Of a stretch of 34,277 bases of DNA, positions 480-18,351 are shown in pieces. The number at the start of each line of letters is the position of its first letter. Position 1 is the first letter of the stretch. The notes below the pieces were generated by a model. That model saw nothing but the letters and a program-made list of their open reading frames with translations. It was not told the origin of the DNA and did no database searches. Origin of the DNA: Fulvivirga sp. (GTDB lineage Bacteria > Bacteroidota > Bacteroidia > Cytophagales > Cyclobacteriaceae); the NCBI GenBank assembly GCA_028280565.1, contig JANQLQ010000201.1:1-34277 (forward strand). The letters are read 5' to 3'. The translations under genes and the position numbers were made by a program.

Positions 480-974
480 ATGATTATGAATAAAAACTGG
501 CTCAACTATATCTTAGAGCAACTTCATAGGGAAGCTTTTATTTGGGCCAGGCAGTGTTGTGATTATGACGATGAAATGGCGAAAGAGGTACTGCAGGTGG
601 TTTACTTAAAAATGCTGGAAGGAAGGGCTCGCTACCGGGAAAAGTCGAAGGTGAAAACCTGGTTGTTTTCAGTAATACGCTTTACGGCCATTGACCTACA
701 GAAGGAACGCCACCATTTCATAGGATTGGAAGGACTTGCCAACACTGTCGAGGAGAAAAATAATGATTGTGATCTTGATTATGAGCCATTGCTCCGGGAG
801 CTGTCTCAAAAACAGCATCAAGTGTTGGTCTTAGCTTTCTATCACAATATGACGCTGGCAGAAATTGCCGAAGTGACCGGAATGACAATAGGCACGGTAA
901 GGACCCATTATGATCGTGGAAAGAAAGCATTGAAAGAACTCATATTAAAAGAAAAGGCAAATGGAGGAAGATGA
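480..974 (+). CDS. ECF-type RNA polymerase sigma factor
   Basis: A 164-aa sigma-70 family protein of ECF size. Region 2 lies at about residues 12-85, with a helical core and a KTWLFSVIRFTAIDL stretch typical of the -10-recognition and DNA-melting helices. Region 4 lies at about 103-155, with the helix-turn-helix segment LAEIAEVTGMTIGTVRTHYD. It would direct core polymerase to a specific promoter set in the cytoplasm. It overlaps the next gene by 14 nt, which suggests coupled translation with that putative anti-sigma partner. A second Met three codons in (482-aa numbering aside, residue 3) is an alternative start. The family call is firm; the inducing signal is unknown but probably reaches it through the two downstream genes. 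Confidence 0.93.
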   Translation: MIMNKNWLNYILEQLHREAFIWARQCCDYDDEMAKEVLQVVYLKMLEGRARYREKSKVKTWLFSVIRFTAIDLQKERHHFIGLEGLANTVEEKNNDCDLDYEPLLRELSQKQHQVLVLAFYHNMTLAEIAEVTGMTIGTVRTHYDRGKKALKELILKEKANGGR

Positions 975-1281
975 TAAAATAATCCGGCAATTCTTTGATA
1001 GGATCAAAGAAGTGGATGAAAGGCGGGCGGTTCCTAGGTATCCGATGAAAAAGAGCCATCGGGTAAGGACCAGGCCCCTATTGGGTATCGCCGCTGCGGT
1101 GATTGTCTTGGTGGGAAGCTATTTTCTCATGAAACAAAGCTCCCTGCGCGATGATACAAGAGCAGTCTTTTTGGAGATTTCGGTTAACCCGAAAGAGGGA
1201 GAGTCCACGGGATCATTGGCCGTACCGGCCTCTATGGATTCATGGGAATCTCCTACGAATTCGTTGATCGCGGATTTTTAA
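961..1281 (+). CDS. Small single-pass membrane protein, putative anti-sigma factor
   Basis: A 106-aa protein with a charged cytoplasmic N-terminus (residues 1-37), one clear membrane helix at about 39-57 (LLGIAAAVIVLVGSYFLM), and a roughly 48-residue extracytoplasmic tail. No recognisable zinc anti-sigma motif is present. The assignment rests on position: it overlaps the ECF sigma gene and precedes a periplasmic Spy-like gene, the order seen for sigma / membrane anti-sigma / periplasmic sensor sets such as CnrH-CnrY-CnrX. Size and topology (short cytoplasmic part, one helix, short outer part) fit a CnrY-like antagonist. It could equally be an uncharacterised small membrane protein. Confidence 0.7.
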   Translation: MEEDDKIIRQFFDRIKEVDERRAVPRYPMKKSHRVRTRPLLGIAAAVIVLVGSYFLMKQSSLRDDTRAVFLEISVNPKEGESTGSLAVPASMDSWESPTNSLIADF

Positions 1282-1324
1282 TGTGTGTGAATTTGAAAGT
1301 TGTAAGTTATAAATTAAGATAAGT

Positions 1325-1981
1325 ATGAAAAGGTATATTCTATTGCTTTTAGTCACTACGGTAGGCGTAGTGCAGGGACAAGACGTATTTCGAGAGAAGC
1401 TGTTTTCCGTCGATTTGATCCTAAAGTATGCGGAAGACATCGCTCTTTCTGATCAGCAAGAAGCCTCGGTGAAAAAGATCTACAATGATCACATCTCGGA
1501 ATTTAACTCATTGAAATGGGAGCTAGATGCGCAAATGGTGAAAATGGACCGGTTGATCTCCACAGGCCAGGTGGATAACGAGGCGGCGTTGAAAAAAATG
1601 GATCACCTGCTGGATCTTGAAAATAAGCTAAAAAAGATGCGTTTTAAAGTGATGCTGGCTTTAAAAAGCCAGCTCACCGAGACACAACAAGAACAGCTCA
1701 AGGGGTTGAGATCGAGCTCCGATGGGGTAGGCTTGAATATGATGACTCCCATCAATGAAAACCCTAGGGTAATGCTTAAAGTAGATGGCCCAAAATCAGC
1801 AGGTGATCCTCTTTACATCATTAAAGACCAATATGGCCAGCGGCGTGCTAATTCAGTCTCAGGGATCGAGCCCGCGGATATTGAATCCGTGGAGGTGATC
1901 AAAGGGGAAATGGCGCTAGATGAGTACGGGCAAGATGGGAAAAATGGAGTGATCATCGTGACTTTGAAATCCCGGCTTTGA
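1325..1981 (+). CDS. Secreted Spy/CnrX-like helical protein with C-terminal TonB-plug-like domain
   Basis: A 218-aa protein. Residues 1-18 form a signal peptide (cleavage probably after Gly18). Residues 25-130 are strongly helical and charged, bracketed by LSDQQ (41-45) and LTETQ (117-121), the LTxxQ-type pattern of Spy/CpxP/CnrX periplasmic proteins. After a short linker, residues about 148-218 resemble the end of a SusC-type plug: DPLYII (161-166), IEPADIESVEVIKG (181-194) and YGxxGxNGVIIVT (201-213). No beta-barrel follows, so it is not a receptor. It lies 43 bp after the membrane protein gene and closes the sigma operon. A periplasmic sensor role is inferred from operon order. A palindromic terminator follows at 1997-2029. 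Confidence 0.8.
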   Translation: MKRYILLLLVTTVGVVQGQDVFREKLFSVDLILKYAEDIALSDQQEASVKKIYNDHISEFNSLKWELDAQMVKMDRLISTGQVDNEAALKKMDHLLDLENKLKKMRFKVMLALKSQLTETQQEQLKGLRSSSDGVGLNMMTPINENPRVMLKVDGPKSAGDPLYIIKDQYGQRRANSVSGIEPADIESVEVIKGEMALDEYGQDGKNGVIIVTLKSRL

Positions 1982-2039: not shown

Positions 2040-4693
2040 CTATTCATCCTTCAAACAATCCACAGGGTTCTCCTTAGCCGCTTTCAAGGTTTGCACGCTG
2101 ACTGTGAGCCATGCCACGATACCTGTAAACATCCCGGCCAGCGCAAAGGGAAAGGGGGTGAGTGTATGCGGTACGCAAAGTCTTCTAACCAGTGTCTCAG
2201 TACTATCCAGGCGATGGGAGCCGCCAATAAAAAGGCAAGGCCCATCACCTTTATAAGATCTTTTGACAGTAGGATCAAAATGTTCTTTACACTGGCTCCA
2301 ACTACTTTGCGGATTCCAATTTCCTTTGTGCGTAAACTTATAGTATAAGCAGAAATGGAGAAAAGGCCGATGCAGGCAATAAAAATACCCAGCCCTGAAA
2401 AAATAAAGAACACCTTCCCTAGGCGTTGTTCAGCGTTGTATTGAGTGTCCAAGGTTTGGTCTAGGAATTTAAAATTAAACGGACGATCCGGCACTAATTT
2501 CTCCCATGCGGCTTCAAGCTGGGCTAGCGCTTGCTGGGTACCTCCCGGTTTTATCTTTACCAAAATATACTTTGCTCTCCCCCGGTAACGGTCCGTGCTC
2601 TGGACCACAAGGGGTTTGACATGTTCGTGGAGTGTTTGGTAATGAAAATCTTTGACTACACCTTTGATGGTGAATTCAATCTCTGCGTCCAAAGTCTCCT
2701 GGATGATCTTCTTCCCGAGAGGGTTTTCCAAACCGAGGAACTTAACCGCCGATTCATTGATCATTACATAATGTGAGTCGTCTGATCCCCGGGAAAAGAA
2801 TTGACCCTCTAATAATTCATAACCCATTACTTCTGAAAATCCATCCCCTACCACTGCCCTAGTAGTGGTGAACATTTGGTCGGAACCTTGGAGACGGTAC
2901 CCGTTAAAATTTTCGCCCTCTATTTCTTGCACCCAGTAGCTTCCTGCCCCGCTTTGTACCTGGGAAATATCTTCTACGGCATTCAAAAAAGGCTGTATGA
3001 AGCCAGGGTCCCTATGGTTAGTCCCTTGTATGACGATTATCTGCTCTTTGTCAAATCCTAGGTCTTTTTCTAGGAGAAAGGTGAGCTGTTGGTGTATTAC
3101 CAAGGTAACGGTAATAACCACCACGGAAATGCAAAACTGGAAAGCGACCAGCCCGTTCCGGGTCCTCTTACCTTGCAGGTTTGAGTTAGATCTCCCCTTA
3201 AGTGCGTTTATTGGTTTAAATGAAGAGAGTACCCAAGCCGGGTAGGCACCGGAGAAGACAGTGATGACCAGTGCTGATCCCATGAGAACCCAAATGACGC
3301 CACTGTCAAAATTGATGACCAATTCTTTTTCGATCAAAATATTGAAGTAAGGAAGGAGGATCGTGGTAGATGCAAGGGCAATTGAAACAGCAACCAGGGC
3401 AAGGATAAAGGACTCGGTGAAGAACCGGAGGATCAATTGGGGCTTTGTAGCACCGATCACTTTTCTCACCCCTATCTCGTGTATGCGTACCATAGATCGT
3501 GCGGCCGCCAGGTTAATGAAGTTAACGCATGCAATAATGAAGATCAGCGCGGCAATAGCGACCAATATCCTAACTGTAGTCATACTTCCCCCGGGCTTAA
3601 ATCCCCCTAAATTTCCCGGGTCCAGATGCAATGAAGTTAAGGGTTTGAAATGGTATTGGGACCTGTTCCCGGCTTTTCGATACTCTTCCCATGAGACCCC
3701 AAAAGCCTCTTCAACAGCGTTGGGCATATATTTTTTGACCATGGCTGGAAATTCTCTTTCCAATGCATGTGGATCTGCGCCACGCTGTAGTTTAAAATAA
3801 CAATGAGCGGTGGCCAGGTTAAAATGATTTAAGTTAAACCAACTGATCGAAGCGGAAGAGCCTATGTAGTTGAATTCAAAATGAGAGTTGGGAGGAGGAT
3901 CTTCACAGATACCTGTTACCCGGAAATCCCTATTGTTCATGAAAATTGATTTGCCGAGTGGCTCGTCGTTGCCAAAGTATTTTTGAGCCATGCTCTCGGT
4001 GAGTACCACACTATTTGGCTCGCGCAGTGCCGTTTTGGGGTTGCCTCTTAACAGTTTAAAACTAAAAACGAGGAAAAAATTACCATCGGCGTAATACCCG
4101 GAATTTTCCAAAAAACTCACGTTCCTATCATCATCTTTTACCACCGTAATGGGCTCACTATGGTAGGGCCCCGCGATGGCCGTGGCACTTTCAACTTGGG
4201 CATAATCCTGTGCCATAGACCTCGTGAAAGAGTAGGCAACTTTTGGGTCCCATTCGTAAGCTCCTTCTTTTTGCCGCCCTGCTACCATTTTGTAAATGCG
4301 GTCTGCATCGGTGAAGAAACGGTCGTGAGATAGCTCATCTTGAACAAATAGCGAGATCAAAAGGGCACTAGTAACCCCCACAGCTATGCCCATGGCGCTC
4401 ACGAAGGAATATTCCTTTCTCTTCATTAGACTGCGAGCGCTTACTTTCAAGTTGTTTTTGAACATATCACAAGAATTTAACTGTTGAGGATCACCGAAAG
4501 TCCGAATGATCCCGGGACGAAAAAGCCGTAGTACATCCCAAAACAGTGCCCAGCGAGCAACCTTTGCCCCTTTTCCCAGCCTCCTTTTTTCAAACCTCTC
4601 TAGCAAATCCCCTTCCAGGTCTTCGAGGTAGCCCGGGTGGCAATACCAACGAAAGAAACGAAGAGGCAAACGAGGCAAATGTTTTTTACTCAT
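2040..4693 (-). pseudogene. Permease-prefix-domain ABC permease, fifth of array, 3' frameshift
   Basis: The intact frame from 4693 to 2084 gives 869 aa. Its N-terminal prefix domain (RFFRWYCHP...EDLEGDLLERF, about residues 12-36), first membrane helix (about 95-117), MacB-type periplasmic region and two FtsX-type membrane cores match its four paralogues. After FAYRIHS near the end, the frame runs into a non-homologous tail stopping at 2084. Reading one frame over from about 2155 restores the family C-terminus: PFALAGMFTGIVAWLTVSV, then a stretch ending NPVDCLKDE, stop TAG at 2040-2042. The restored protein is about 884 aa. The break is one missing base, most likely in the five-C run at 2154-2158 (GGGGG on the + strand). 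It may be a real late frameshift, which would scramble the last helix, or a sequencing error. No ATPase gene is nearby. Confidence 0.85.
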
Positions 4694-7289
4694 CTCTTAA
4701 GCATTCAACCGGGTTCACATAGGCAGCTTTAAAAGTTTGGACGCCTACGGTGAGCCATGCTATGACCAAGGTGGTGAACCCGGCGCCGAAAAAGAACCAC
4801 CACTCCAATGCAATGCGGTACGCGAAGCCGTCGAGCCAGTTTTTCACTAAGAAATAGCTGGCAGGGAGCGCCAGTAAAACGGCGATCACGATCATTCTGG
4901 TAAAATCACTCGAAAGCAGGTAGATAATGCCGGCGGTTCCGGAGCCCAGGATCTTGCGTATCCCGATCTCTTTTAGCCTTCTTTCTACAATGAATGCCAC
5001 GAGGCCGAAGAGCCCTAAACAGGAGATCAGGATGGCCATGCCACAGAAATAGCCCGATAGTACAGATGCTTGCTTCTCCGGTGCGTACAGTGTACGGTAA
5101 TCATCCTCCAGGTATTCGTATTCAAAGGGAAAACCGGGATTGATTTCCTCATGCAGGGTTTGTATTTGTGAAATAGTGATCTTTTCGGTGCCTTCTTGTA
5201 TTTTGATCAGTGTTTTGTTCGCCGAGTTTACAAGCTGCAGAAAGCAAGGCTTGATCTCTTCATGGATAGACTCAAAGTGAAAATTTTTAACCACGCCTAT
5301 GATCTCCCGTTCCGTACCCCATAGGTTGATCTTTTTGCCAATGGGATCTTTCAAGCCCATGGTGGCAATGGCGGCTTCGTTAAAGATGATCTTACCCTCA
5401 CCATCCTGGTGGTCTTTCGAGTAAGATCTTCCCGCGGCCATTTCTATCGATAGTGTTTCGATGAAATCATAGCCTACCTCGAGGTTGCCGAATCTTATGG
5501 TAGCGTCCGGGTCTTTTCCTTCCCATGACAATCCCCAGGTACCTCCATGGTCGCCGACTAAGTCATGGAAAAAAGTGGTGGCGTTAACTACCCCGGGAAT
5601 TTCCCTTAGTTTGGCAAAAAATGTTTCTTTTTTTTCAAGAAGCTGGCCATCGTTATTGATGTAAAGGATGTTTTTGCGGTCATAGCCCAGGTCTTTGGAT
5701 TGAATGTAGGCCACCTGTTGGTACATTACGATCACCGAGGTAATGAGTATGATGGAAACGGCGAACTGGAAAACGACCAATCCCTTACGAAGTTGTCCTG
5801 TGCCTTGCCGTGAAGCTACCGTGCCTTTCAGTACATGTACCGCGTTGAATTTAGATAAATAAAAGGCAGGGTATATCCCGGACAGGGTAGAAGTGAAAAA
5901 TGTCGCTGCCGTGATCCCTAAGATCATCCAAGGATCCGGGTGGAGGGTAAGTTGTTTCCCTACGATAGTGTTAAAGTAGGGTAAGAGGATGGCTACCATA
6001 AGTAGCGATACGGCCAAGGCTAGTAAGGTCATTAAAAAAGACTCTCCTAAGAATTGCCACGCAATTGCACCACGGCCGGCGCCTATCGTCTTTTTTACCC
6101 CAATTTCTTTCATTCTACGCGAAGCTTTTGCGGTGGACAGGTTAATAAAATTAATACAGGCGATAACAAGGATCAGCAGTGCCGTCGCGGAAAATAGCTG
6201 TACGTATTGTATTCTCCCGCCGGCGATCAACCCATTTTCGTAACACCCGTTAAGGTAACGTTCTGAATAGCGCTGAAGGAATAAAGTGCTGGCAGACTTT
6301 GATAGCTTAGTCTTAATAAAGTTTTCTATGCTCTCGTTGACAGATATAGGGTCCGCTTCTTTTTCTAATAGGACATAGGTCCTTGGATCACTATTCCACC
6401 ATTTTTTTAAGTAAGGTTCCTTTTCCAGGAAAAATTCCATGCTAAATACCAAGTCAAATTGCTGCGAGGAGTTTTTAGGTGGCTTTTCAAAAACACCTGT
6501 GATCACAAAATCACCGCTGTAGTCTTCTTTAACCCATTTTATGTCTTTGCCTACCAGGTCCTGGGTGGTGTTAAAAAGCCGTTGGGCCAGCTCATTTGAA
6601 ATGACTACCCCTTCTTTAGTTGACAGTGCTCGCGATCTATTCCCCTCGAGTAACCGGTAGCTAAAAATGTTAAAATAGTCTTCGCTGGCGTATTGCTCGG
6701 CGGCTTTGATGTAATTGTCACCAGTCGCGGAGATAAGACCGAATTCATTGAAGAATCCAACCGGTATGACACTGGTAGCCTGTTTGATACCCGGTACTTC
6801 TTCTACCAGCGCTTTGCCCAACGGGGCTGGGGTACTAGTACTCGTAGTGATCCCCGTTTCCTGGTGCAGGTTATTCATGACTTGGTACAAGTATGGATCG
6901 TTAGCATGGAATTTATCCATACCCAACTCATCGCGCACCCATAATGAAATAAGAAGAAAGCAAGCAAGCCCGGTGGATAAGCCCGTGATGTTAACGAAAA
7001 AGGAGTTTTTATAGCGTTTGAAGCTTCTCAGGTTAAGTATAAGATTGTGTCGTAACATATCGTAATCGTTGAGTTTTTGGCGTTCGTTCAGTGATCTTAT
7101 AATGCCCGGTCTAAAGAGCCGTATTACGTCTTTGGTGAATTTCCTTTGTGCGCTGGTCGTCCCTTCAGCTTCAACATTTCTTTCGAACCTTTCCACCAGG
7201 TCCCCTTCCAGGTCTTCGAGGTAGCCCGGGTGGCAGTACCATCGGAAAAATTGTAGCGCGAGCTTGGGTGGAGAGGCGCTTTTATTCAT
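4686..7289 (-). CDS. Permease-prefix-domain ABC permease, fourth of array
   Basis: An 867-aa inner-membrane protein. The prefix domain occupies about residues 10-70 (QFFRWYCHP, EDLEGDLVERF, then LFRPGIIRSL). The first helix is at about 97-117 (FVNITGLSTGLACFLLISLWV), followed by a large extracytoplasmic MacB-like domain. Then come three helices with the FtsX signature (LLILVIACINFINLSTAKA, MKEIGVKKTIGA), a second extracytoplasmic domain, and a second FtsX core near the C-terminus (LKEIGIRKILGS) ending NPVECLRDE. It overlaps the preceding and following genes by 8 nt each. Family members act as MacB/LolCE-like mechanotransmission permeases, but the ATPase partner is not encoded here and the substrate is unknown. 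Confidence 0.92.
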   Translation of the reverse strand: MNKSASPPKLALQFFRWYCHPGYLEDLEGDLVERFERNVEAEGTTSAQRKFTKDVIRLFRPGIIRSLNERQKLNDYDMLRHNLILNLRSFKRYKNSFFVNITGLSTGLACFLLISLWVRDELGMDKFHANDPYLYQVMNNLHQETGITTSTSTPAPLGKALVEEVPGIKQATSVIPVGFFNEFGLISATGDNYIKAAEQYASEDYFNIFSYRLLEGNRSRALSTKEGVVISNELAQRLFNTTQDLVGKDIKWVKEDYSGDFVITGVFEKPPKNSSQQFDLVFSMEFFLEKEPYLKKWWNSDPRTYVLLEKEADPISVNESIENFIKTKLSKSASTLFLQRYSERYLNGCYENGLIAGGRIQYVQLFSATALLILVIACINFINLSTAKASRRMKEIGVKKTIGAGRGAIAWQFLGESFLMTLLALAVSLLMVAILLPYFNTIVGKQLTLHPDPWMILGITAATFFTSTLSGIYPAFYLSKFNAVHVLKGTVASRQGTGQLRKGLVVFQFAVSIILITSVIVMYQQVAYIQSKDLGYDRKNILYINNDGQLLEKKETFFAKLREIPGVVNATTFFHDLVGDHGGTWGLSWEGKDPDATIRFGNLEVGYDFIETLSIEMAAGRSYSKDHQDGEGKIIFNEAAIATMGLKDPIGKKINLWGTEREIIGVVKNFHFESIHEEIKPCFLQLVNSANKTLIKIQEGTEKITISQIQTLHEEINPGFPFEYEYLEDDYRTLYAPEKQASVLSGYFCGMAILISCLGLFGLVAFIVERRLKEIGIRKILGSGTAGIIYLLSSDFTRMIVIAVLLALPASYFLVKNWLDGFAYRIALEWWFFFGAGFTTLVIAWLTVGVQTFKAAYVNPVECLRDE

Positions 7290-9885
7290 CTTTCAGCGAA
7301 TCTACCGGGTTGGCTACAGCAGCTTTTGCACTTTGGAAACCAATCGTGAGCATGGAAATGACCAGGCATATCCCCAGTGATAAGGCAAAGACCCATAGCC
7401 CGATATCAATTTTATAGGTGAAGCCTTCCAGCCATTTGGACATCACCCACCATCCCAAAGGAGCAGCAATAGCGGTAGAAACGAGGATGAGTTTTAAAAA
7501 CTCCATACTGAAAATAGCGAGGATATTGGAAACGGCTGCCCCCAGTATCTTGCGTATGGCCACCTCTTTCTTTTTACGAGAAGCCATAAAAGAGACCAGG
7601 CCGAAAAGTCCTATACAACCAATAAGAATGGCCAAACCGGTGAATACTTTGACAAGGTTCAAGATCACGTTTTCCGTTTCATAGAGTTGAGCCACGCGAT
7701 CATCAAGAAAGTGGTACGTAAAGACCTGGTCGGGGTAGCTCTCCTTCCAATATGACCCGATAGTAGCCAAAGCTTCGTTGTAATCGGTACCTTTCAACTT
7801 AATAGCGTAGCGATTGTAATACTCAAGCTGGGTAGTAAAACAAACTGCATTTCTCTCCTGGTGGAAGGATCGGTCGTAAAAGTCCTTGACCACCCCTACG
7901 ACGGTTCCTTTCCATCGCCCCGCGTTGATGGCCAGCTCTTTCCCAATAATTTCATCCGGCGCCGATAGGTTGAGCTGTTCCACCAAAGTCTCGTTGACCA
8001 GGAACTCTCGTAGCGTATCGCTGGGGAGAAGATTCCTACCGGCAACTAAGTCCATTTCGAATGTAAAAAGGTAATTCGTGTCAGCCGGTTTGAAATCGAT
8101 ATCAAACTTCTCCGGCTCTTCGCTATTGTCGAAACTAACGGTGGTGGTCCAATTATTCTCACCTGCTGCGGGTGGAGCCAAACAAGCGGTTATGTTTTCT
8201 ACATAGGTCAACTCTAAAATCCGGTTTTTTAGGGTTTTTAACTTCTCATCCTTAGATCCCGTGCGTACCATGACTATAGCATCTTTCTTGAACCCCAGGT
8301 CGGATTGGGTGAACTTCATTTGGTTCACGATCACGATCAGCCCTACGATCAACAACTGGGAGATCACGAACTGGCCGATGATCAATGTACGACGTACGTT
8401 GAACCCCCCGATATTATGTTGGGCTAATTTGCCTTTCAAAGTGATGATCGGCGAGAGCCTGGCCAGTAAAACCCCTGGATAAGCCCCTGAAACAAATACT
8501 ACGAGCAGGAAGAGAAGGGGAAGAAAAAGCAAAAGATCAATACCCAGTCCGCTATCAAATCGTAGTGAATCTCCCAGCCAAAGATTGACACGGGGTTCGA
8601 AAATCCAAGAAAGCAATAACGCCAAGCTGATGGACAACAGGGTAACCAAACCCGTTTCTGTCATAAACCGCCAAAACAAGAGGCTCCTTGAGCCACCGAT
8701 CGCCTTACTGATCCCCACCTCCTTTGATCGTTTCAGCACCAGCGCAGTAGCTAAGTTGATAAAATTAAAGCAGGCGGCAATCAGCAAAAACAACCCGATG
8801 ACTACCAGCACCACCAGGTTCTTTTTGGAAATCACACCCCCATACAACGTACTGAAATGTATGTCCTTCAGCGGCTGTAATTTATAAATGTACTTTTCAG
8901 GGCGATCAGGCCTGAATCTTTCGTGAAACCCTTCGAGGGATTTTTCTACGCTCTCAGCAGTAACCCCCTGCTTCACACGCGTAAAACACTGCATACTGGC
9001 CGACAAGCCTCCCCAAGAATCATCATCTGCATACCATTCATTGTATTCGGGCAATGTGCTGTAAGAAATGTAGAGTTGGGTCTGAAAGTCTGAATTTTTG
9101 GGTTTGTCTCTCATTATCCCTGTTACGGTGAGCAAGACTTTGTTATCCAGTTCCATCGTGCGTGAGATAGGATCGCTTTCGCCAAAATATTTTCGTGCCA
9201 AGCTCTCCGTAAGCACTACAGAATTGGGCTGACTCAACGCTTTTTCCACGTTGCCCCGGACTAATGGGAAATTCATAATTGAGAAATACTCGGTCTCTGC
9301 AAAGGCAATGGTTTCGTGGTACTTGTCCTTCTCGTCCACGGTGATCAAACGCCGGCTTTGTGTAACGACCCGGGCCACCTGCTCAGCGTATGTAAATTCT
9401 TCCCGGAATACCTTGCCAAAGGGATTATGTACCGAGGCATTATAGTACAAATTATCCACATGCTCTTCCGTGACGAAACGGTAGATCCTTTCGGTATCCG
9501 TATGGAAATCGTCAAAACTGGCATGATACTTTACAAAAGAATAAATGAGGATACAACAGCTGAGCCCCAGGGCTAGTCCTACGATATTAATGACAGAAAA
9601 CTGGAGGTTCCTGGTCAGGCTTCTCCAAGCGAATTTGAAATGGTACTTGTACATAATCAATGGATTGAGTTTTTGACTTTTGAAAAGTGGTTTTATGAGC
9701 GCTGGCCTAAAAAGCCGCAAGACATCCCCTAGAAATCTCCATTTTGCTGACCCGGCTCCATTCCTTGTGAGCCGATTTTCAAACCGCTCCTTTAGGTCGC
9801 CCTCTAGATCCTCCAGGTAATCCGGGTGGCAATACCACTGGAAAAAGCGGAAGGGGATTTTCGGTGGCTGATGTTCCTTACTCAT
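7282..9885 (-). CDS. Permease-prefix-domain ABC permease, third of array
   Basis: 867 aa. The prefix domain begins RFFQWYCHP and EDLEGDLKERF (about residues 12-37). The first helix is at about 96-115 (VINIVGLALGLSCCILIYSFV). The first FtsX core contains LFLLIAACFNFINLATALV and SKEVGISKAIGGS. The C-terminal FtsX core contains KKEVAIRKILGAA and ends NPVDSLKDE. Start ATG 9885 overlaps the upstream stop in ATGAGTAA, and its own stop overlaps the downstream start in ATGAATAA. Divergence from its neighbours is concentrated in the extracytoplasmic parts, as expected if each paralogue handles a different ligand or partner (inference). Length matches its neighbours; it appears intact. Confidence 0.92.
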   Translation of the reverse strand: MSKEHQPPKIPFRFFQWYCHPDYLEDLEGDLKERFENRLTRNGAGSAKWRFLGDVLRLFRPALIKPLFKSQKLNPLIMYKYHFKFAWRSLTRNLQFSVINIVGLALGLSCCILIYSFVKYHASFDDFHTDTERIYRFVTEEHVDNLYYNASVHNPFGKVFREEFTYAEQVARVVTQSRRLITVDEKDKYHETIAFAETEYFSIMNFPLVRGNVEKALSQPNSVVLTESLARKYFGESDPISRTMELDNKVLLTVTGIMRDKPKNSDFQTQLYISYSTLPEYNEWYADDDSWGGLSASMQCFTRVKQGVTAESVEKSLEGFHERFRPDRPEKYIYKLQPLKDIHFSTLYGGVISKKNLVVLVVIGLFLLIAACFNFINLATALVLKRSKEVGISKAIGGSRSLLFWRFMTETGLVTLLSISLALLLSWIFEPRVNLWLGDSLRFDSGLGIDLLLFLPLLFLLVVFVSGAYPGVLLARLSPIITLKGKLAQHNIGGFNVRRTLIIGQFVISQLLIVGLIVIVNQMKFTQSDLGFKKDAIVMVRTGSKDEKLKTLKNRILELTYVENITACLAPPAAGENNWTTTVSFDNSEEPEKFDIDFKPADTNYLFTFEMDLVAGRNLLPSDTLREFLVNETLVEQLNLSAPDEIIGKELAINAGRWKGTVVGVVKDFYDRSFHQERNAVCFTTQLEYYNRYAIKLKGTDYNEALATIGSYWKESYPDQVFTYHFLDDRVAQLYETENVILNLVKVFTGLAILIGCIGLFGLVSFMASRKKKEVAIRKILGAAVSNILAIFSMEFLKLILVSTAIAAPLGWWVMSKWLEGFTYKIDIGLWVFALSLGICLVISMLTIGFQSAKAAVANPVDSLKDE

Positions 9886-12523
9886 CCTTCAACGTCATTG
9901 CAGGATTGGCCATCACTGCTTGCAGAGATTGGAAGCAGATGGTAACAAAAGAAACTATTAGGGTCAAAACGCCGGCCATTACAAAAGCGCTCCAAGGGAT
10001 ATCGATGCGATAGGAAAAAGTCTGTAGCCAGCTATCCGTCACGACCCATACCAGTGGGACCGTAACAACTAAAGCTACCAGTATAAGCACGAGGAACCGC
10101 TTGGCTAATATCCCTAAAAGATGGCGGATGGAGGCGCCTAGCACTTTACGGATGCAGATCTCTTTCTTGCGTTGCTGTGTAATATAACCCACCAGGCCCA
10201 GTAGCCCCAACAAAGCGATCGATGCAGTAAGCCCGGAGAAAAGCTTAAAGATCGTTTTTACCTGCAATTCACCTTTGTAAAGATTGTTATAGTGATCATC
10301 CATGAAAAAATAGGTCATGGCTACCTCGGGTATGAATCGTTTCCAAGTCGTTTCGACATGGCTTATAATTTCCTGTAGGTTGCCGCCAGCAACACGAATA
10401 GATAAATAGTTGTCGCGATAAGCCCTCCTGTAAAAATTGGGGAGGACCAGGATTGGGATTTTGGAGTGATGTAGTGACTTGTGATGGAAATCCTCGATCA
10501 CACCGATAACTTCAAAGGTGAGGTCGGCATTGCCGTAGAGTTGTACTTGTTTCCCGATGGGCTCTTCCCAGCCTAGTTTCAGCGCCATGGCTTGGTTGAT
10601 CACTAGCGCCATAGAGTCCGAGGCAAATTCGGTTGAGAAAAACCTGCCCTTGTCTAGCGTGACACCATAGGTTTCAGCAAAGTCCTCATCGGCAAAAATG
10701 AAATCGAACGCCATGTTTTCATGATCTTGAGGCTTAAACTGGACATTGCTAAAAGGTATTGTCGGGACCGACAGCGAGGCGGAAGTAGCAATGATCCCTG
10801 CATTCTGCTCAAGCGCATATTTAAATTCATCAATTTCTTCACTGAGAAAATAAAGATTTTCGAGAACCAATACCCCATCTTTTTCAAAGCCCAGCTGCTT
10901 GTTTTGGATATAATGAAGCTGTTTGGAAATGATCAACGACCCAGTGATGATACTTATGGAGATCACAAACTGGAAGATCAGAAGGCCGTGTTTGAAGGCT
11001 ACTTTTGTGCCTTTTTTATTCAAAGTGCCTTTTAGGGTATTGATAGGGGCAAACCGGGTAAGGTAAAATGCGGGGTAGAGGCCGGCCAGCGAACCTAATA
11101 GCAGTGAGAATAGCAATAAACCCGGGATTATAATTTTGTAGTCGAAATAGTCGAGGGTAATGTTAACGTCGGCAAAGGACCGGAAGGTGGGCATAACCAC
11201 CAGCAGTAGTACTAAAGCCAGTAATACGGCAATAAGGCAATAAACTTGACTTTCCACCAAGTGCTGGAAAACCAGTTGTGATCGTGTAGAGCCGATCACC
11301 TTCCGTATTCCTATCTCTTTAAAACGATTATTGGCGCGCGCAATGGTAAGATTGACAAAATTGACACAAGCCATGACCAGGACCAGTACGGCAGTCACCA
11401 GGAAGATATAAACGTAAATGATGTTGCCATTGGGCTCGAATTCACCCGGGAGGTTGGACTTCAAGTGAATGTCGGCCATGGGCTGAAGGAATGACCACCA
11501 TTCGTTCCCGTTTTCAAATGCTTTGGGAGGAAGATGTTTTTCATATAAGGTAGGAAGTTTAGCCTCCAGCTCTTCCGCAGATGCTCCTTCATTAAGCAGC
11601 AGGTAAGTGATATAGCTGTTATTCCACCAATTGGTCTCTTTGCTATTGGGTATGTTTTCATTAGATATAAGGAAATCGAAATGAAAATGTGACTGGCTAG
11701 GCATATCCCTCACTACCCCTGCGATAGACATATGGATCGGTTGGGCGCCAAAGTTGATGACCATTGACTGGTTTAACAGGTCCTTCTCGGCCCACTTATT
11801 CCCAAAGTACCGTGCAGCGCTGCTTTCTGATAAGATCACTTTACCCGTACTCGATAGGGCTTCCTTGGGATTACCCACTAAAATCTCTATGGAGAAAATA
11901 TCAAAGAGAGCAGGATCAACAGCATAAACTGAATTTTCCAAATACGTTTGGGTGGCGACGGAATCTTCCAGCAATTGAAAATTGATAGTGCCCAGCCGTA
12001 AAAATCGTGTGGCATCCTCGACCTCGGGAAATGTTTTTTTCATTTCCGAAGCCAACATGGCCGTGGTGTACAACTGGTGAAATTCGGAGTCTTGCAGCTT
12101 GCCATGAAGCCCTACACGATAGATACGGTCCGCCTGGGTATGGTGCTTGTCGTAGCCCAGTTCATACGATACGTACATAAGCATCAATAAAGTGGTGGCT
12201 ACTCCTATGGCTAGTCCTGAAATGTTGATAATCGAGTGACCTTTTTGTCTCTGCAGGTTTCGATAAGCAATTTTAAAATAGTTTTTGACCATGTCGTACG
12301 TATTGAGTTTTTGAATGCCTGGTAATGACCGGATAATTCCGGGTCTGAAAAGCAATAGGACCTCTTTGAGAAAAAGCCATTTTGCTGTCTTTGGCCCTTG
12401 TTGATCTGCCACCCTTTCAAAACGCTCCAATAGATCACCTTCCAGGTCTTCCACGTAGTCCCGGTGACAGTACCATCGGAAGAAGCGAAGAAATGGGCCC
12501 GGTGGATAGTATTGTTTATTCAT
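9878..12523 (-). CDS. Permease-prefix-domain ABC permease, second of array
   Basis: 881 aa. The prefix domain carries RFFRWYCHR, with Arg where the other four have Pro, then EDLEGDLLERF. The first helix is at about 98-118. The first FtsX core contains VLVLVMACVNFVNLTIARA and FKEIGIRKVIGST. The C-terminal core contains KKEICIRKVLGAS, and the protein ends NPAMTLKDE. This terminal motif is less conserved than the NPVxxLKDE/RDE of the others. Its start lies inside the last codons of the first permease (AAT GAA TAA), giving the shared 8-nt overlap. Predicted inner membrane, with two large extracytoplasmic loops. The gene appears intact. Confidence 0.92.
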   Translation of the reverse strand: MNKQYYPPGPFLRFFRWYCHRDYVEDLEGDLLERFERVADQQGPKTAKWLFLKEVLLLFRPGIIRSLPGIQKLNTYDMVKNYFKIAYRNLQRQKGHSIINISGLAIGVATTLLMLMYVSYELGYDKHHTQADRIYRVGLHGKLQDSEFHQLYTTAMLASEMKKTFPEVEDATRFLRLGTINFQLLEDSVATQTYLENSVYAVDPALFDIFSIEILVGNPKEALSSTGKVILSESSAARYFGNKWAEKDLLNQSMVINFGAQPIHMSIAGVVRDMPSQSHFHFDFLISNENIPNSKETNWWNNSYITYLLLNEGASAEELEAKLPTLYEKHLPPKAFENGNEWWSFLQPMADIHLKSNLPGEFEPNGNIIYVYIFLVTAVLVLVMACVNFVNLTIARANNRFKEIGIRKVIGSTRSQLVFQHLVESQVYCLIAVLLALVLLLVVMPTFRSFADVNITLDYFDYKIIIPGLLLFSLLLGSLAGLYPAFYLTRFAPINTLKGTLNKKGTKVAFKHGLLIFQFVISISIITGSLIISKQLHYIQNKQLGFEKDGVLVLENLYFLSEEIDEFKYALEQNAGIIATSASLSVPTIPFSNVQFKPQDHENMAFDFIFADEDFAETYGVTLDKGRFFSTEFASDSMALVINQAMALKLGWEEPIGKQVQLYGNADLTFEVIGVIEDFHHKSLHHSKIPILVLPNFYRRAYRDNYLSIRVAGGNLQEIISHVETTWKRFIPEVAMTYFFMDDHYNNLYKGELQVKTIFKLFSGLTASIALLGLLGLVGYITQQRKKEICIRKVLGASIRHLLGILAKRFLVLILVALVVTVPLVWVVTDSWLQTFSYRIDIPWSAFVMAGVLTLIVSFVTICFQSLQAVMANPAMTLKDE

Positions 12524-15188
12524 TTTTCAACGAATCGACGGGATTAGCGAAAGACACCTTCAAAGCTTGTGTACTTATCGTGATCAAGGCTATGGCCATG
12601 ACCATGACCCCGGCTACTCCAAAAAACCACCACGCCAGGTCGATCTTATATACATAATCCTCCAGCCATTTTTGCATGAGGTACCCACCAACGGGTACAG
12701 CTACCAGCATGGAAAACAGGATAAGCTTGATGAAATTAAAAGTCAGCAAACGGAAGATATTGCTGACAGAGGCCCCCAACACCTTGCGTATGCTCATCTC
12801 TTTATTACGCTGCTCAGCGATAAACGCCGACAGTGCAAACAATCCAAGGCATGCTACGATGATGGCAAAAACAGCAAAGGTGAAAAATACTCGTTTCATG
12901 CGTTGTACATCACCATACATCATCTCGAACCGGTCATCTAAGAATTCGTAGCGTAAGGATTGCTTCGGGGAGAATTTGTTCCAAGTAGTTTCAATGGAGC
13001 GTATAAGCTGTGGCATGTCTGCTGTATTGGCCTTTACTGATACCATATAAGGACTATTCCCAATGATCATACATACCCCTTTGATGCCCTCCTTGAATGA
13101 CTGGAAATTGAAATCTTCCACCATTCCAACAATTTCTAGGGTATTTCCCCCATCGCCACCGCCTTTCTCCATGCGTTGACCGATGGGATGATCCAATCCA
13201 AGCTTTTGGGCCAAAGTTTCATTGATGATCGCTTTTTCAAGATTGTTATTCTCTCGGTCTGCAAAATCCTGCCCCTTGAGGATTTTCATACCCATGGTTT
13301 CGACATAATCTTCATCTATTTGCCATAATTGCCCTATCACCATGCCTTCATCCTTTTTTGCCTCTTTCCAGAAGCCTACACCGTTACGCTTCACCTCGTT
13401 TCCGGTGATGGGCAGGTAATCGCCAACAGATGCATTTTGCACACCGGGTAAACCTAAGAGTTCATTTTTGAAGGGTTGCACTTGATCCCCAAGGGTATGA
13501 GTGCCTTGTATTAGGATCACCTGGTCCTTTTCAAAGCCTACTTTTGAATTTAAGATGAAACCTGTCTGCTGGTGTATCACTATTGTGCTGATAATTAGAA
13601 CGATAGAAACTCCGAATTGAAAGACCACCAGTCCATTTCTGAGCGTAACATTTTTCGCTCCCCTGCCGCTGGTCCCTTTAAGTGCTTGTATGGGCTGAAA
13701 AGCCGAAAGATAAAGTGCAGGATACATCCCGGAAACAAAGCCAACTCCCAAAATAAACAAGGGTATGCTGAGGATAAACCAAGGCGAGTCCCAAGGGAAT
13801 AGTAAGGCCTTGGCGGCGAGCAGGTTAAAATAGGGCAAAAACCACCAAGCCAGCAAAACACCAATAAGCGACGCAACAACACTCAAAAGAATCGATTCAG
13901 ATAGAAACTGTATGATCAAGTGGATCCGGAACGACCCCATCGTCTTTCTAAGGCCCACTTCTTTTGCGCGGTTAGCAGATTTGGCGGTGGAAAGATTTAC
14001 AAAATTGATACAGGCCAGGCACAAGATAAATATCGCGATTGCCGCGAATAGCCCCACCACTTTAATATCTCCGCCACCGGCCTCCCCCGTATGTGTCGAC
14101 TTTAAGTGTACATCCCGTATCGGTTGAAGGTGGAACTTGAAATTGTCCTTGATAGCTGCCACTTCAAGCTCTAGCTCCTGGGCTAGTACGGGAGCGCAAT
14201 ACTGTTGAAGGATAGTGCTTAGTTTATCCTCGAAAGCTTGAACATTGCTGTTAGGCTTCAGCTTGAGATAGGTTAAGTAATTGGTATTTACCCATTCTGT
14301 TTGTTCATCGGTCCAAAACTCCTTTTCGGCCAGCGTTAATAAAAAATCATAATCCAGGTGGCTGTTAGCAGGGAAATCCTCCATTACGCCACCTATGACA
14401 TAAGGGGCTTTATCCTTGTTGTCCAATACCAGGGTTTTTCCCAGCGCATTCTCTCCTGGGAAATACAGGTCTGCCTTGCTCTTGGATATCACCATCGTAC
14501 GTGGCTCGACCAGTGCAGTGTGCAAGTCCCCTTCTACCATACGGGGTTGGAACACTTCCAATAGTTCCTGGTCTAAATAGGCGGTATGCTTTTGATGCAT
14601 GCCCCTAGGGCTGCCTGTACGCCTTATTTCATTTCCCCCTACCCCAAAGAAGGCATAAGGATTTAGCCTGCCGGCTTGCTCTACTTCGGGAAAGTGTTCC
14701 TTAAGCGTTCGGGCGAGTGGGGCCTGTGAAGCCACATCAAACCCACTTTCCCCCTGGTAGTTATATTCAAATAACACCCTGAAAATGCGGTCATGATCGG
14801 GGAAATGCTGGTCATAGCTAAGCTCATGTTTTACATATAGGGTGATTAATAAACAAGCTGCAACACCTATGGATAAGCTGCTTACTTTAATGGCAGAATA
14901 CATTTTATAACGCAACAGGTTGCGCCAAGCCATCTTAAAATAATTTTTAAGCATACCGTAATGATTTAATGTTTGATCAGCCCCTAGGGAGCGAATGATA
15001 CCTGGCCTGAACAGTTGCATGACCTCTTTGTACAGGCTCCACTTAGCTGTACCAAGACCTTTGGCTTTTAACCTATGCTCAAACCTTTCCAGCAAATCCC
15101 CCTCCAGGTCCTCCCGGTAGTCTGGGTGGCAATACCACCGGAAGAAGCGGAGGGGGAGTTTTGGCGGCGTGTTCGTGTCGTTTTTCAT
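12516..15188 (-). CDS. Permease-prefix-domain ABC permease, first of array
   Basis: 890 aa, the promoter-proximal member. Residues 13-38 hold the prefix motifs (RFFRWYCHP, EDLEGDLLERF) and LFRPGIIRSL follows at 59-68. The first helix spans about 97-118 and is followed by the MacB periplasmic domain. The middle FtsX core carries FILCLACINFVNLSTAKSA and AKEVGLRKTMGS. The C-terminal core carries NKEMSIRKVLGAS and the protein ends NPVDSLKNE. ATG 15188 was chosen because it starts just before the prefix domain, as in all paralogues. Upstream lies repetitive DNA and the DUF559 gene rather than an obvious native promoter, so expression may come from padR-side or repeat-borne signals. Orphan permease: no nucleotide-binding subunit is encoded within the window's cluster. 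Confidence 0.92.
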   Translation of the reverse strand: MKNDTNTPPKLPLRFFRWYCHPDYREDLEGDLLERFEHRLKAKGLGTAKWSLYKEVMQLFRPGIIRSLGADQTLNHYGMLKNYFKMAWRNLLRYKMYSAIKVSSLSIGVAACLLITLYVKHELSYDQHFPDHDRIFRVLFEYNYQGESGFDVASQAPLARTLKEHFPEVEQAGRLNPYAFFGVGGNEIRRTGSPRGMHQKHTAYLDQELLEVFQPRMVEGDLHTALVEPRTMVISKSKADLYFPGENALGKTLVLDNKDKAPYVIGGVMEDFPANSHLDYDFLLTLAEKEFWTDEQTEWVNTNYLTYLKLKPNSNVQAFEDKLSTILQQYCAPVLAQELELEVAAIKDNFKFHLQPIRDVHLKSTHTGEAGGGDIKVVGLFAAIAIFILCLACINFVNLSTAKSANRAKEVGLRKTMGSFRIHLIIQFLSESILLSVVASLIGVLLAWWFLPYFNLLAAKALLFPWDSPWFILSIPLFILGVGFVSGMYPALYLSAFQPIQALKGTSGRGAKNVTLRNGLVVFQFGVSIVLIISTIVIHQQTGFILNSKVGFEKDQVILIQGTHTLGDQVQPFKNELLGLPGVQNASVGDYLPITGNEVKRNGVGFWKEAKKDEGMVIGQLWQIDEDYVETMGMKILKGQDFADRENNNLEKAIINETLAQKLGLDHPIGQRMEKGGGDGGNTLEIVGMVEDFNFQSFKEGIKGVCMIIGNSPYMVSVKANTADMPQLIRSIETTWNKFSPKQSLRYEFLDDRFEMMYGDVQRMKRVFFTFAVFAIIVACLGLFALSAFIAEQRNKEMSIRKVLGASVSNIFRLLTFNFIKLILFSMLVAVPVGGYLMQKWLEDYVYKIDLAWWFFGVAGVMVMAIALITISTQALKVSFANPVDSLKNE

Positions 15189-15472: not shown

Positions 15473-15877
15473 TCAGTTAGTTTTTAAGGTTAATTCCTTC
15501 ATTCTCTTTTCTTCGTAAGTCCTTATTTTGTTTACAGTTTTGGTTAAACCTTCTTCAATTTCATTGTTGGTAAACCGCAGCACTCTTATACCGTAATTCT
15601 CTATTATGCGCTGCCTTGCTAGGTCATATCCTGTTTGTTCGGAAGTATTATGATATTCTCCATCGACTTCAATCACCAGTCTGAGTTTATGGCAATAGAA
15701 ATCTGCTATGAAGTTGTCAATCGGATGTTGAGCTTTAAACCTCAGTCCTAGTATGTTCTTGAACCTAAGCTCCTCCCAAAGTAATTTTTCATGATGGGTC
15801 ATATTCTTTCTAAGTACCCTTGCCTTTTCAAATACGGGTGGGGTGGCTCCGTAAAACATTTCCCTATTGTCATTCAT
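15473..15877 (-). CDS. DUF559 (PD-(D/E)XK-fold) endonuclease-like protein
   Basis: A 134-aa protein of the DUF559 family, related to very-short-patch-repair endonucleases. Visible features are a helical N-terminus (ARVLRKNMTHHEKLLWEEL, 19-37), the core FIADFYCHKLRLVIEVDGEYH with Asp59, Glu70 and Asp72 as probable metal ligands, and the C-terminal strand IRVLRFTNNEI (97-107). Length is normal for the family and the core residues are intact. It is a lone gene flanked on both sides by repetitive DNA and lies between padR and the permease genes it probably once adjoined. A role in DNA cleavage or repeat mobility is inference; the cellular function of stand-alone DUF559 proteins is unclear. Confidence 0.9.
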   Translation of the reverse strand: MNDNREMFYGATPPVFEKARVLRKNMTHHEKLLWEELRFKNILGLRFKAQHPIDNFIADFYCHKLRLVIEVDGEYHNTSEQTGYDLARQRIIENYGIRVLRFTNNEIEEGLTKTVNKIRTYEEKRMKELTLKTN

Positions 15878-16093: not shown

Positions 16094-16423
16094 TTACTCC
16101 CCGAAAACGAACTTCGGTATAGCATTCCAAAGCCCTAGACGCTGTTCCTTTACCTCTGCCAATACTTTCTTGCCGTAAGAAGTCAACATGAAAAATCGCT
16201 TTCGCTTACCCCCTCGTGCTTTGGTAGCCTCTCCCAGCTTTGACGATAGGTAGCCTTTCTTTTCTAATCTCCTCAAAACGGTTTGCAAAGCCCCTATGCT
16301 CACTTTCCTGTTCAACCGCTGCTCCATTTCATCGATAATGGCTACACCATAGGCCTCATCATGCAGTATGGCAACGGTCAACATGACGATCTCTTCAAAT
16401 TCTCCCAGGTGATGTTTACTCAT
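16094..16423 (-). CDS. PadR family transcriptional regulator
   Basis: A 109-aa winged-helix protein of the short PadR type. It starts MSKHHLGEFEEIVML and continues through YGVAIIDEME (helix 2), SIGALQTVLRRLEKKGYLSS (recognition helix leading into the wing) and the wing segment GGKRKRFFMLTSYGKKVLAEV. It is a DNA-binding repressor acting in the cytoplasm, usually as a dimer. PadR genes next to large permease-prefix permeases are a known pairing in Acidobacteria (ADOP permeases) and other groups, so its target is probably the downstream permease array and its own promoter. Two matching boxes lie upstream (16438-16450 and 16479-16491). The 216 bp downstream, before DUF559, hold repeat sequence. 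Confidence 0.92.
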   Translation of the reverse strand: MSKHHLGEFEEIVMLTVAILHDEAYGVAIIDEMEQRLNRKVSIGALQTVLRRLEKKGYLSSKLGEATKARGGKRKRFFMLTSYGKKVLAEVKEQRLGLWNAIPKFVFGE

Positions 16424-16638: not shown

Positions 16639-18351
16639 TTATTCGGGGGTATATTCCCAAAAATCGCTGTAAAATTGGTCTCTTATACCTCCCATACCGA
16701 TATATCCTTTTTTGCCTATGGAGAAGCCTGCGGCATCAAATCGACTCTCACCTTCAAAGGTAGCTTTTTCCGTCCATGTGTCAGTGGCAGGGTCATATTC
16801 CCAAAGATCTTTTGCGGCGTTATCAATTACCGTGCCCATATATCCTAAACTGATGTAGCCTTTCGTACCTATTGAAAAACCAGCAGCCCCGTCTCTGCCC
16901 GATCCTTTAAAGGTAGCTTTCTCCGTCCATTTGCCGGTGGAGGGGTCATACTCCCAAAAATCGTTCAAATAATTTCCGTTTTGATCCTTACCGGTACCTA
17001 TATAGCCTTTACCGTTCAAAGAAAAGCCCAGGGCGCCCCACCTGCCTTCACCTTCAAAGGCCGCTATCGCTGTCCATTTATCCAAAACGGGGTCGTATTC
17101 CCAAAAATCGGTCAAATAGCTGCCATTGAAGCCGGTGCCTATGTAGCCCTTGCCGTCTGCGGAAAATCCTAAGGCATCATATCGAGCCGCTCCCGGAAGC
17201 GCTGCTTTTTGCGTCCATTGGTCCGTAGCAGGGTCGTACTCCCAAAAATCCTTCAAAAAAAGATTGTTGACATCGTGACTAAGACCGGTTCCAATGTATC
17301 CTTTTCCATTGATACTAAAACCTACCGCCTTCCTCCGGCTTGCTCCATCAAAATCCGCTTTCCGTGTCCAGGTATCTGTGGCTGGATCATACTCCCATAA
17401 GTCTTTTAAAACGTCACTTCCACTAAACCCAGTGGTGATATACCCTTTATCGCCAATGGTGAAACTCACGGCCTCTACCCTATGGGAACTCCAGAATTCA
17501 GCTTTTTTGGTCCATACATTGCTTAAAATTGTAAAGTCCGATGCACTTTTCACCATTTGATCTCTTACTTGTATCGTGATTCGCCCGGTAACAGCTTCTT
17601 CGGGGACCACTACCATGAGTTTATCGATAGTGGCCGTAGATACCACGGCCATCAAATCATTGAATTTGACCAGGTTCCCGGTAAGGCTGGTGGAAAAATT
17701 ATTTCCGTTGATCGTTACCCAGGTGCCTACTACGCCTTGGGAGGGCGTGAAGCTGGTTATGGTGGGAGGTACTATAAAATCGGTTGTAGTGGTCGCCCTT
17801 CGACCGTCCATTTCAACCCTTATAGGCCCACTCGTAGCCCCAGCAGGAACAATAACTGTAAGATGGCTGCTAGTCGCGTTGATGACTTCGCCAGCAATGA
17901 AGTTGAAGTGAACCTTGTTCTCGATGGCGGTCGTGGAAAAATTTGTGCCCTCTATTCGTACTTCGGTTCCTGCTACGCCGACATTGGGCGTAAACCCGGT
18001 GATGGTAAGTGCTTCTGAAATTACCGTAAATACCTCGGTACTTGTAACGGTTTGACCTCCTGTCTCTACCGTGATATTACCCGAGGTAGCCGTGGCAGGT
18101 ACCCTAACTACCAGTTGATTGGCACTGGCCCCGGTTATTGGGGCTTTTACTCCATTAAAGCGTACAGTGTTTTCGTCTAGGCTGCCAAGGAAGTTTGTTC
18201 CGTTGATGACCACTTCTGTCCAAACTGTTCCTTCCGTAGGGCTGAAATTTGTTATCGCTAAAACGTTAGGGCTCTCGTCATCGTTGGCGCATTGTGAAAA
18301 TAAGACAGGGATAAACAAAAGGAGAACGGGTAAGTTGGGGTGTTTTATCAT
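16639..18351 (-). CDS. Lipoprotein with three IPT/TIG domains and six kelch repeats
   Basis: A 570-aa protein. A signal peptide ends at Cys21 (LFSQC followed by ANDDE), suggesting a surface or periplasmic lipoprotein, although Gln at -1 is atypical for a lipobox. Three IPT/TIG immunoglobulin-like domains follow at about 31-110, 112-195 and 197-275; each begins IT.F.P..G and contains GTNF or GNNF. Six kelch units (about 278-570) each end D(L/F)WEY(D/T)P and begin WT.KA, with GKGYIGTG in the strand; six units suit a six-bladed propeller. Carbohydrate or protein binding at the cell surface is inferred. It is monocistronic as far as can be seen. Confidence 0.88.
   Translation of the reverse strand: MIKHPNLPVLLLFIPVLFSQCANDDESPNVLAITNFSPTEGTVWTEVVINGTNFLGSLDENTVRFNGVKAPITGASANQLVVRVPATATSGNITVETGGQTVTSTEVFTVISEALTITGFTPNVGVAGTEVRIEGTNFSTTAIENKVHFNFIAGEVINATSSHLTVIVPAGATSGPIRVEMDGRRATTTTDFIVPPTITSFTPSQGVVGTWVTINGNNFSTSLTGNLVKFNDLMAVVSTATIDKLMVVVPEEAVTGRITIQVRDQMVKSASDFTILSNVWTKKAEFWSSHRVEAVSFTIGDKGYITTGFSGSDVLKDLWEYDPATDTWTRKADFDGASRRKAVGFSINGKGYIGTGLSHDVNNLFLKDFWEYDPATDQWTQKAALPGAARYDALGFSADGKGYIGTGFNGSYLTDFWEYDPVLDKWTAIAAFEGEGRWGALGFSLNGKGYIGTGKDQNGNYLNDFWEYDPSTGKWTEKATFKGSGRDGAAGFSIGTKGYISLGYMGTVIDNAAKDLWEYDPATDTWTEKATFEGESRFDAAGFSIGKKGYIGMGGIRDQFYSDFWEYTPE

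Follow-up and report, generated by a model that had tools for sequence, protein, structure and literature searches.

The locus studied here raises a question of origin and a question of function: how did five large permeases, encoded one behind the other, come to stand behind a single PadR-type regulator gene, and what do they share with this regulator, with each other and with an ATPase that might drive them? The window, i.e. the whole stretch of DNA that was analysed, is contig C79 (34,277 nucleotides) of a Fulvivirga genome (G000; 9.05 Mb in 337 contigs), in which start codons and gene borders were assigned within this analysis.

The array, its proteins and described systems

A sequence-only reading of this DNA had described five large MacB/FtsX permeases on one strand, with a prefix domain, a PadR neighbour and no adjacent ATPase gene, and all of this was borne out. 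The five open frames (Table 1) encode proteins that each match perm_prefix_2 (NF038404; 51-66 bits, cut-off 35) and contain two MacB_PCD and two FtsX stretches; MacB_PCD, FtsX and a coupling helix are found in each half, as in type VII (MacB-type) ABC permeases. One ABC ATPase gene (24505-26130) was all that the window yielded; it encodes a chain with two ABC domains, and was rejected as a MacB-type partner.

Table 1. Features of the permease locus and their positions in the window
Feature	Position	Strand	Basis
Permease 1 (transcribed first), prefix_2 plus two MacB_PCD/FtsX halves, 890 aa	12516..15188	-	open frame, domains
Permease 2, 881 aa	9878..12523	-	open frame, domains
Permease 3, 867 aa; 74-75% identical to two relatives in G010 contig C19	7282..9885	-	
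Permease 4, 867 aa; AlphaFold model pLDDT 77, pTM 0.66	4686..7289	-	
Permease 5 (transcribed last), 869 aa from the open frame 2084-4693; position includes the out-of-frame tail	2040..4693	-	
Prefix tag and linker, permease 1, residues 1-72	14973..15188	-	
Prefix tag and linker, permease 2, residues 1-72	12308..12523	-	
Prefix tag and linker, permease 3, residues 1-72	9670..9885	-	
Prefix tag and linker, permease 4	7074..7289	-	predicted helices 9-18, 21-42, 44-58; linker 61-74
Prefix tag and linker, permease 5, residues 1-72	4478..4693	-	
PadR regulator, with which the prefix tag presumably pairs	16094..16423	-	
DUF559 gene, between PadR and the array	15473..15877	-	
8-nt stop/start overlap ATGAATAA, permeases 1/2	12516..12523	-	
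8-nt overlap ATGAGTAA, permeases 2/3	9878..9885	-	
8-nt overlap ATGAATAA, permeases 3/4	7282..7289	-	
8-nt overlap ATGAGTAA, permeases 4/5	4686..4693	-	

Several features of the surroundings recur elsewhere. Upstream of the array, the DUF559 gene has a relative at the equivalent place in G010 contig C125, and a gene for a kelch/TIG protein (16639-18351, minus strand), which adjoins the PadR gene, is also found beside related PadR genes in G010 and G013. Beyond the 3' end of the array and convergent to it (480-1981, plus strand) are genes whose products are a sigma factor, a small protein and a Spy-like protein that weakly matches the TonB plug; sigma factor and Spy-like genes flank the array on G010 contig C19 as well. 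By eye, the A-rich stretch at 280-350 may contain an imperfect inverted repeat. Rfam and tRNA scans of the window gave no matches.

In the AlphaFold model of permease 4, three N-terminal helices are followed by a low-confidence linker and then by the membrane part, and the prefix modelled alone formed the same three helices (pLDDT 85). Each protein is accordingly predicted to begin with a prefix of three helices, which a linker joins to a complete permease of two halves; from the topology of MacB we take the prefix to be cytoplasmic. The best Foldseek match of the whole model was YbbAP (9ge6; E 3e-20, TM 0.45), followed by MacB, BceAB and LolCDE entries. The coupling helices of the model (393-402 and 772-780) carry the motif R-x-K-E-I/V-G-x-R-K-x-x-G, which is the most conserved part of the prefix_2 permeases and whose consensus is near-identical in 87 prefix_2 and 11 ATPase-adjacent permeases. 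Calculated per 20 residues, conservation was 0.72-0.74 at the two motifs and lowest (0.26-0.55) in the periplasmic stretches, in agreement with the earlier impression that divergence is greatest in the outer loops.

The one named relative found comes from the Flammeovirgaceae MAG LYSV01000038.1 (75% identity to permease 3), and such genes have been reported, in the accessible text of one study, as 'orphan permease of unknown function' (PMC11573002). The acidobacterial duplicated orphan permeases (ADOP, TIGR03434) likewise have two MacB/FtsX halves per chain, no adjacent ATPase and a PadR nearby, but all five window permeases score 247-299 bits against this model, below its cut-off of 622.3, and carry prefix_2, while the window PadR reaches 36 bits with padR_acidobact (cut-off 101.8). 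Against DarB the scores are 98-140 (cut-off 700), and assignment to DarB or to ADOP proper was rejected on these values. MacAB-TolC and the darobactin exporter also combine a MacB-type permease with an ATPase, whereas here the ATPase is not adjacent to the window array. In YbbAP of Escherichia coli, a full-length pseudosymmetric permease works with a separate, known ATPase, two copies of which bind via the coupling helices; the accessible part of that paper mentions neither a PadR nor a prefix for YbbAP (PMC12646458).

As far as its accessible text goes, one paper proposes from gene neighbourhoods that HAAS-PadR dyads are an alternative to two-component systems, and counts FtsX/MacB_PCD permeases among the HAAS fusions (PMC11237479). 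Our locus shares with these dyads a three-helix N-terminal domain on an FtsX/MacB_PCD permease and a standalone PadR neighbour; it differs in having several permeases under one PadR, an array-specific tag and exchanged bodies. The three consecutive helices of a HAAS domain are present in the prefix model of permease 4, and a standalone PadR gene is adjacent in the window and at 13/13 prefix_2 loci of G000. We have nevertheless not filed the prefix as HAAS, because our searches tied it to no known family, by sequence or by fold: with the five prefixes a Pfam search gave no match at E <= 10, the HAAS models DUF1700, DUF1129 and DUF1048 included (the scanner filters drop most very weak matches), and PDB sequence and fold searches returned nothing significant (best fold E 2.5). 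A PadR-type repressor operon that includes a DUF1700 gene is described in the accessible text of PMC6624303. No report of prefixes shared within such arrays was found in literature searches that were worded in other terms and covered few subscription journals.

Prefix_2 was present in 11 of 148 genomes of the phylum (G000 included). In G000, 13 PadR matches and 23 prefix_2 matches fall on the same 13 contigs. A prefix_2 permease followed 35 of the 36 PadR genes in our first set of stretches, the 36th too once its stretch had been extended, and 19/19 in further stretches, that extended one included; since the stretches were chosen around permeases, these figures from outside G000 are no unbiased count. 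The prefix-less arrays fetched gave no PadR match, whereas prefix_2 loci nearly always had one; of the 21 loci in a further set, two showed no PadR, and one of these two begins where its contig does. The one exception encountered is the prefix_2 permease G016:C407:13310-15958, with no recognisable PadR in the fetched stretch upstream. On Spirosoma and Adhaeribacter plasmids (L195, L196, L197 and L198) such a permease lies behind a PadR or an unnamed HTH regulator, and their incomplete gene tables list no ABC ATPase beside the regulator-permease pair; in L195 an unclassified ABC ATPase is listed about 4 kb away, and in L196 the annotation splits the permease into two genes.

Gene overlaps and the origin of the array

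The four junctions of the window array all show the 8-nt ATGARTAA overlap that had been read from the sequence, with ATGAATAA and ATGAGTAA alternating in the order of transcription. The accompanying claim that the proteins end in (D/N)E-stop is seen directly in four of the five; in permease 5 the frame is broken near the 3' end and the conserved tail (...NPVDCLKDE-TAG, stop at 2040-2042) is out of frame, a change at 2084-2250 (minus strand) that may be either a sequencing error or a real defect.

In a survey of 92 same-strand permease junctions, exact 8-nt overlaps were found at 21 of 56 prefix_2 junctions and at 0/36 prefix-less ones (Fisher p = 6e-6). They occur in six genomes, including G021 of another family, and the idea that the overlap is peculiar to the window array was rejected. 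At prefix_2 junctions this spacing accompanied an upstream ATGAR-stop in 20 of 26 cases and was present once, with a GTG start, among the 30 junctions without it; 14 prefix-less junctions also had an ATGAR-stop end, yet the overlap was present in 0/14 (Fisher p = 3e-6 against 20/26). A C-terminal Glu is found in 149 of 154 full-length permeases, and ATGAR-stop, present in 26/56 internal genes, is just as common in genes that come last, stand alone or lie at a contig end (16/32; p = 0.83). At the sequence level, the junction counts, the Glu ends and these equal frequencies show that the motif comes from the protein C-terminus, i.e. from a family-wide ...NPV..L(K/R)xE-stop, and that the 8-nt overlap appears if the upstream end by chance holds ATGAR-stop and the next gene is of the prefix_2 kind. 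ATGAR-stop would be used as a start if the following protein can accept M-(N/S)-(K/N) at its N-terminus; the usual beginning of prefix-less proteins is M, then L/I/V, then K/R, then N. Short overlaps are known to couple translation, and in H. volcanii those of the -8 type have been recorded as one of the less common classes (62 pairs; PMC10666635, accessible text). Equal output of the five permeases through such coupling is possible.

The sequence-only reading had gone further, proposing that the array grew by unequal tandem duplication which preserved the coupling, so that five permeases made at a fixed ratio might pair with each other. The same-strand arrangement and the equal overlaps fit this proposal, as do two neighbouring genes of G010 contig C19, both close relatives of permease 3 (Table 1). 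The overlap is, however, no mark of tandem duplication, because the Glu end is family-wide and ATGAR-stop is equally common outside internal genes. Moreover, in a tree of 100 permeases (94 prefix_2 and 6 prefix-less; a quick tree with SH-aLRT support only, 23 of 97 inner branches being below 80) the five form no clade but are scattered, with prefix-less genes interleaved, and their bodies are 28-32% identical to each other, no closer than to those of other loci. Tandem duplication as the source of the five was rejected on these grounds. Mutual pairing is disfavoured as well, because each protein is itself a two-half permease and the YbbAP permease, the best structural match, alone binds two ATPases. 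Taken as a whole, we consider the proposal highly improbable.

Related loci give a picture of an array of variable length, since the number of permeases differs among them. Relatives of the window PadR (79-92% identical) are encoded in nine other genomes of the genus. In G001, G002 (in two pieces), G009, G011 and G014 a single permease follows the PadR gene, whereas G008 has at least two, G003 at least four, its contigs ending there, and G013 four. In G010 there are four on contig C125 and five on contig C19, the last truncated where the contig stops; the outer flanks of these contigs match the two ends of the window locus and both contigs end there, so that we labelled them one locus, which would hold nine or more permeases if joined.

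Prefix and body in relation to the locus

Judged by alignment, the first ~72 residues of these permeases are specific to array and PadR, and the remaining ~790 carry almost no array signal. For pairs within one genome, the median identity of the prefix (residues 1-62) was 0.667 within loci (124 pairs), a value lowered by coarse binning of the G021 loci and by one misgrouped G008 gene, against 0.339 between loci (538 pairs); for the body the values were 0.323 and 0.312. When labels were permuted, the prefix excess of 0.339 was reached by 0/1000 permutations and the body excess of 0.023, a small signal, by 20/1000. Along the protein, the ratio of within- to between-locus identity was 1.48-2.79 at residues 1-84, 1.24 at 85-96 and 0.93-1.27 thereafter; in this profile, as in the analysis of silent sites, G003 contigs C268 and C382, which both end inside an array, were by assumption treated as one locus. 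In 62 prefix-less permeases, used as a negative control (82 within- and 329 between-locus pairs), 0/11 regions exceeded a ratio of 1.10, the N-terminus included.

These comparisons, together with those that follow, show for the sequences analysed that prefix type tracks PadR type gene by gene, that bodies are assorted across arrays and that the switch lies at about residues 73-78. In trees of 90 genes with 19 PadR types, the prefix required 18 label changes, which is the minimum, and the body 46. Over 35 loci, prefix identity correlated with PadR identity at r = 0.80 for the first and 0.78 for the last gene (body: 0.31 and 0.34). The two parts also dissociate in both directions: 386 between-genome pairs with PadR identity above 0.7 and body identity below 0.36 had a mean prefix identity of 0.58 (minimum 0.46), and 137 with PadR below 0.6 and body above 0.45 had a mean of 0.32 (maximum 0.48), pair counts which are not independent tests, the genomes of the genus being related and pairs sharing genes. 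Permease 1 is a case in point: two genes, one in G010 and one in G013, that belong with a different PadR type match its body at 48% and 47% identity and its prefix at 27% and 24%. The tag rule recurs in loci of other families and classes. In the further set (20 stretches, 28 genes and 21 loci picked from prefix_2 matches and not used to form the idea), the eight within-locus pairs, three of them from a contig-cut locus, all had prefix identities of at least 0.58 with bodies averaging 0.43, against a mean of 0.31 (maximum 0.53) for the prefixes of 39 between-locus pairs.

Met78 is kept in 90 of 93 prefix_2 permeases and corresponds to the start position of prefix-less permeases; in permease 4 its codon lies at 7056-7058. 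This residue could mark the scar of a fusion, or could act as an internal start that yields an untagged form.

Taking into account where the switch lies, the prefix might simply stay with its locus and PadR because recombination breaks near residues 73-78, with no functional contact between the two. Two neighbouring genes of G027, with a PadR gene between them, have bodies 67% and prefixes 34% identical, and change abruptly at residue 73 (9/12 identical at 73-84, 12/12 at 85-96); in the five other discordant pairs shown, identity rises within residues 73-96. Within loci, the prefix also shows a higher likeness at silent sites (0.456) than the baseline of 0.31, and thus part of the likeness reflects a recent shared DNA history. 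Mantel tests within genomes revealed no prefix-PadR correlation (r = 0.01 for the first and -0.02 for the last gene at 13 loci of G000; -0.04 and -0.50 at five loci of G021), so that the overall correlation rests on orthologous locus types and not on graded co-change. Against an account by linkage alone stands the retention of tag type to the last gene of the array (r = 0.84 for the prefix and 0.27 for the body at 20 multi-gene loci), as does the restriction of PadR genes to prefix_2 loci among the arrays fetched. In addition, the five window prefixes are 57% identical with silent sites near baseline (0.336, n = 149, against 0.301 in the body), which suggests selection on the protein. We regard linkage alone as unlikely.

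It could also be imagined that the prefix is a homotypic docking domain which gathers the permeases of one array, the PadR merely sharing their operon. An array-specific prefix and short overlaps would be expected of such an assembly tag, and overlapping gene pairs are generally enriched for subunits of heteromeric complexes (PMC10666635, accessible text). However, single-gene loci (G001, G009, G011 and G014) keep the prefix, which groups with their PadR type, and each permease is already two-halved like YbbP; a role in assembly therefore seems to us rather improbable.

ATPase supply and a proposed mechanism

A shared ATPase encoded elsewhere, as the sequence-only reading had supposed, is plausible, and a search of the genome yielded a candidate. 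Three ATPases of G000 match the C273 query at E <= 1e-60. The C273 ATPase itself (G000:C273:356-1045), whose best score is with DarD (291 bits, cut-off 375), is 98-100% identical in 14/14 other genomes of the genus (LolD: 67-83%). Pairwise medians, based on stop-to-stop frames and on differing genome sets, are 97.8% for C273 and 81.9% for its HlyD neighbour (11 genomes), against 90.6% and 87.2% for the other MacB-type ATPases C243b (12 genomes) and C233 (9 genomes). Outside G000, where the contig ends just past the gene, 16 C273-type operons were mapped; in 12 of them (G003, G004, G005, G006, G007, G008, G010, G011, G012, G013, G021 and G027) the ATPase has a prefix-less permease as its direct neighbour, in G002 four permeases lie on the far side of a response-regulator gene, and in G001, G009 and G014 no permease was found in the stretch searched. 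In G027 a PadR gene and a prefix_2 array follow about 1 kb after the ATPase-adjacent permease, and G021 encodes another such ATPase, together with HlyD and a half permease of 413 aa, at a distance of about 2 kb from a PadR array and on the other strand. ATPase genes of the C243b class adjoin permease genes in G021 and occur close to arrays in G002 and G012; the assignment to C273 is therefore not unique, and C243b is a second candidate.

The prefix_2 permeases might, alternatively, be independent of ATP and act as ligand sensors that signal to PadR only. No MacB-type ATPase gene was found inside any prefix_2 array in the stretches searched, the ATPase operons of G021 and G027 being a few kb away, and G000 encodes some 63 long permeases (our own table count) as against three C273-matching ATPases. 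Both coupling-helix motifs are nevertheless the most conserved parts of these proteins and are nearly the same as in ATPase-adjacent permeases, which argues against this possibility; we assign it a low probability.

The explanation that we favour, and consider fairly probable, is that the prefix reports to its own PadR, that the bodies are interchangeable sensors or pumps, and that the ATPase is supplied from elsewhere and shared. The window array, apparently a single operon, would then place exchangeable type VII (MacB/YbbP-like) permeases under the control of PadR. The cytoplasmic prefix would dock on its own PadR or signal to it, and any tagged permease could alter repression when its periplasmic domain meets a ligand, the 8-nt overlaps presumably coupling translation. 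ATP hydrolysis would occur in trans, most likely by the near-invariant C273 ATPase, whose gene lies with one for a HlyD adaptor and, in the majority of relatives, also with genes for prefix-less permeases. The sharing of one tag across an array of seemingly exchangeable bodies suggests that several different transporters report to a single repressor. More tentatively, and with somewhat less than even confidence, we envisage an address-tag system in which one PadR reads the prefix, bodies recombine at the old start codon Met78 and keep or acquire the local tag, and a single near-invariant ATPase powers several dozen permeases. If this is true, the arrays would amount to libraries of exchangeable ligand detectors, all connected to one switch that stays the same.

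The double dissociation of prefix and body assigns testable roles to the parts of these proteins (prefix to PadR, body to ligand and pump) and indicates which ATPase to try first. It would also add gene-by-gene evolutionary support to the HAAS-PadR idea, as set out in the accessible text of PMC11237479. With 23 prefix_2 matches in G000 and up to 43 in a genome of the genus, these permeases are numerous, and their arrays may offer a natural system for the rewiring of sensors.
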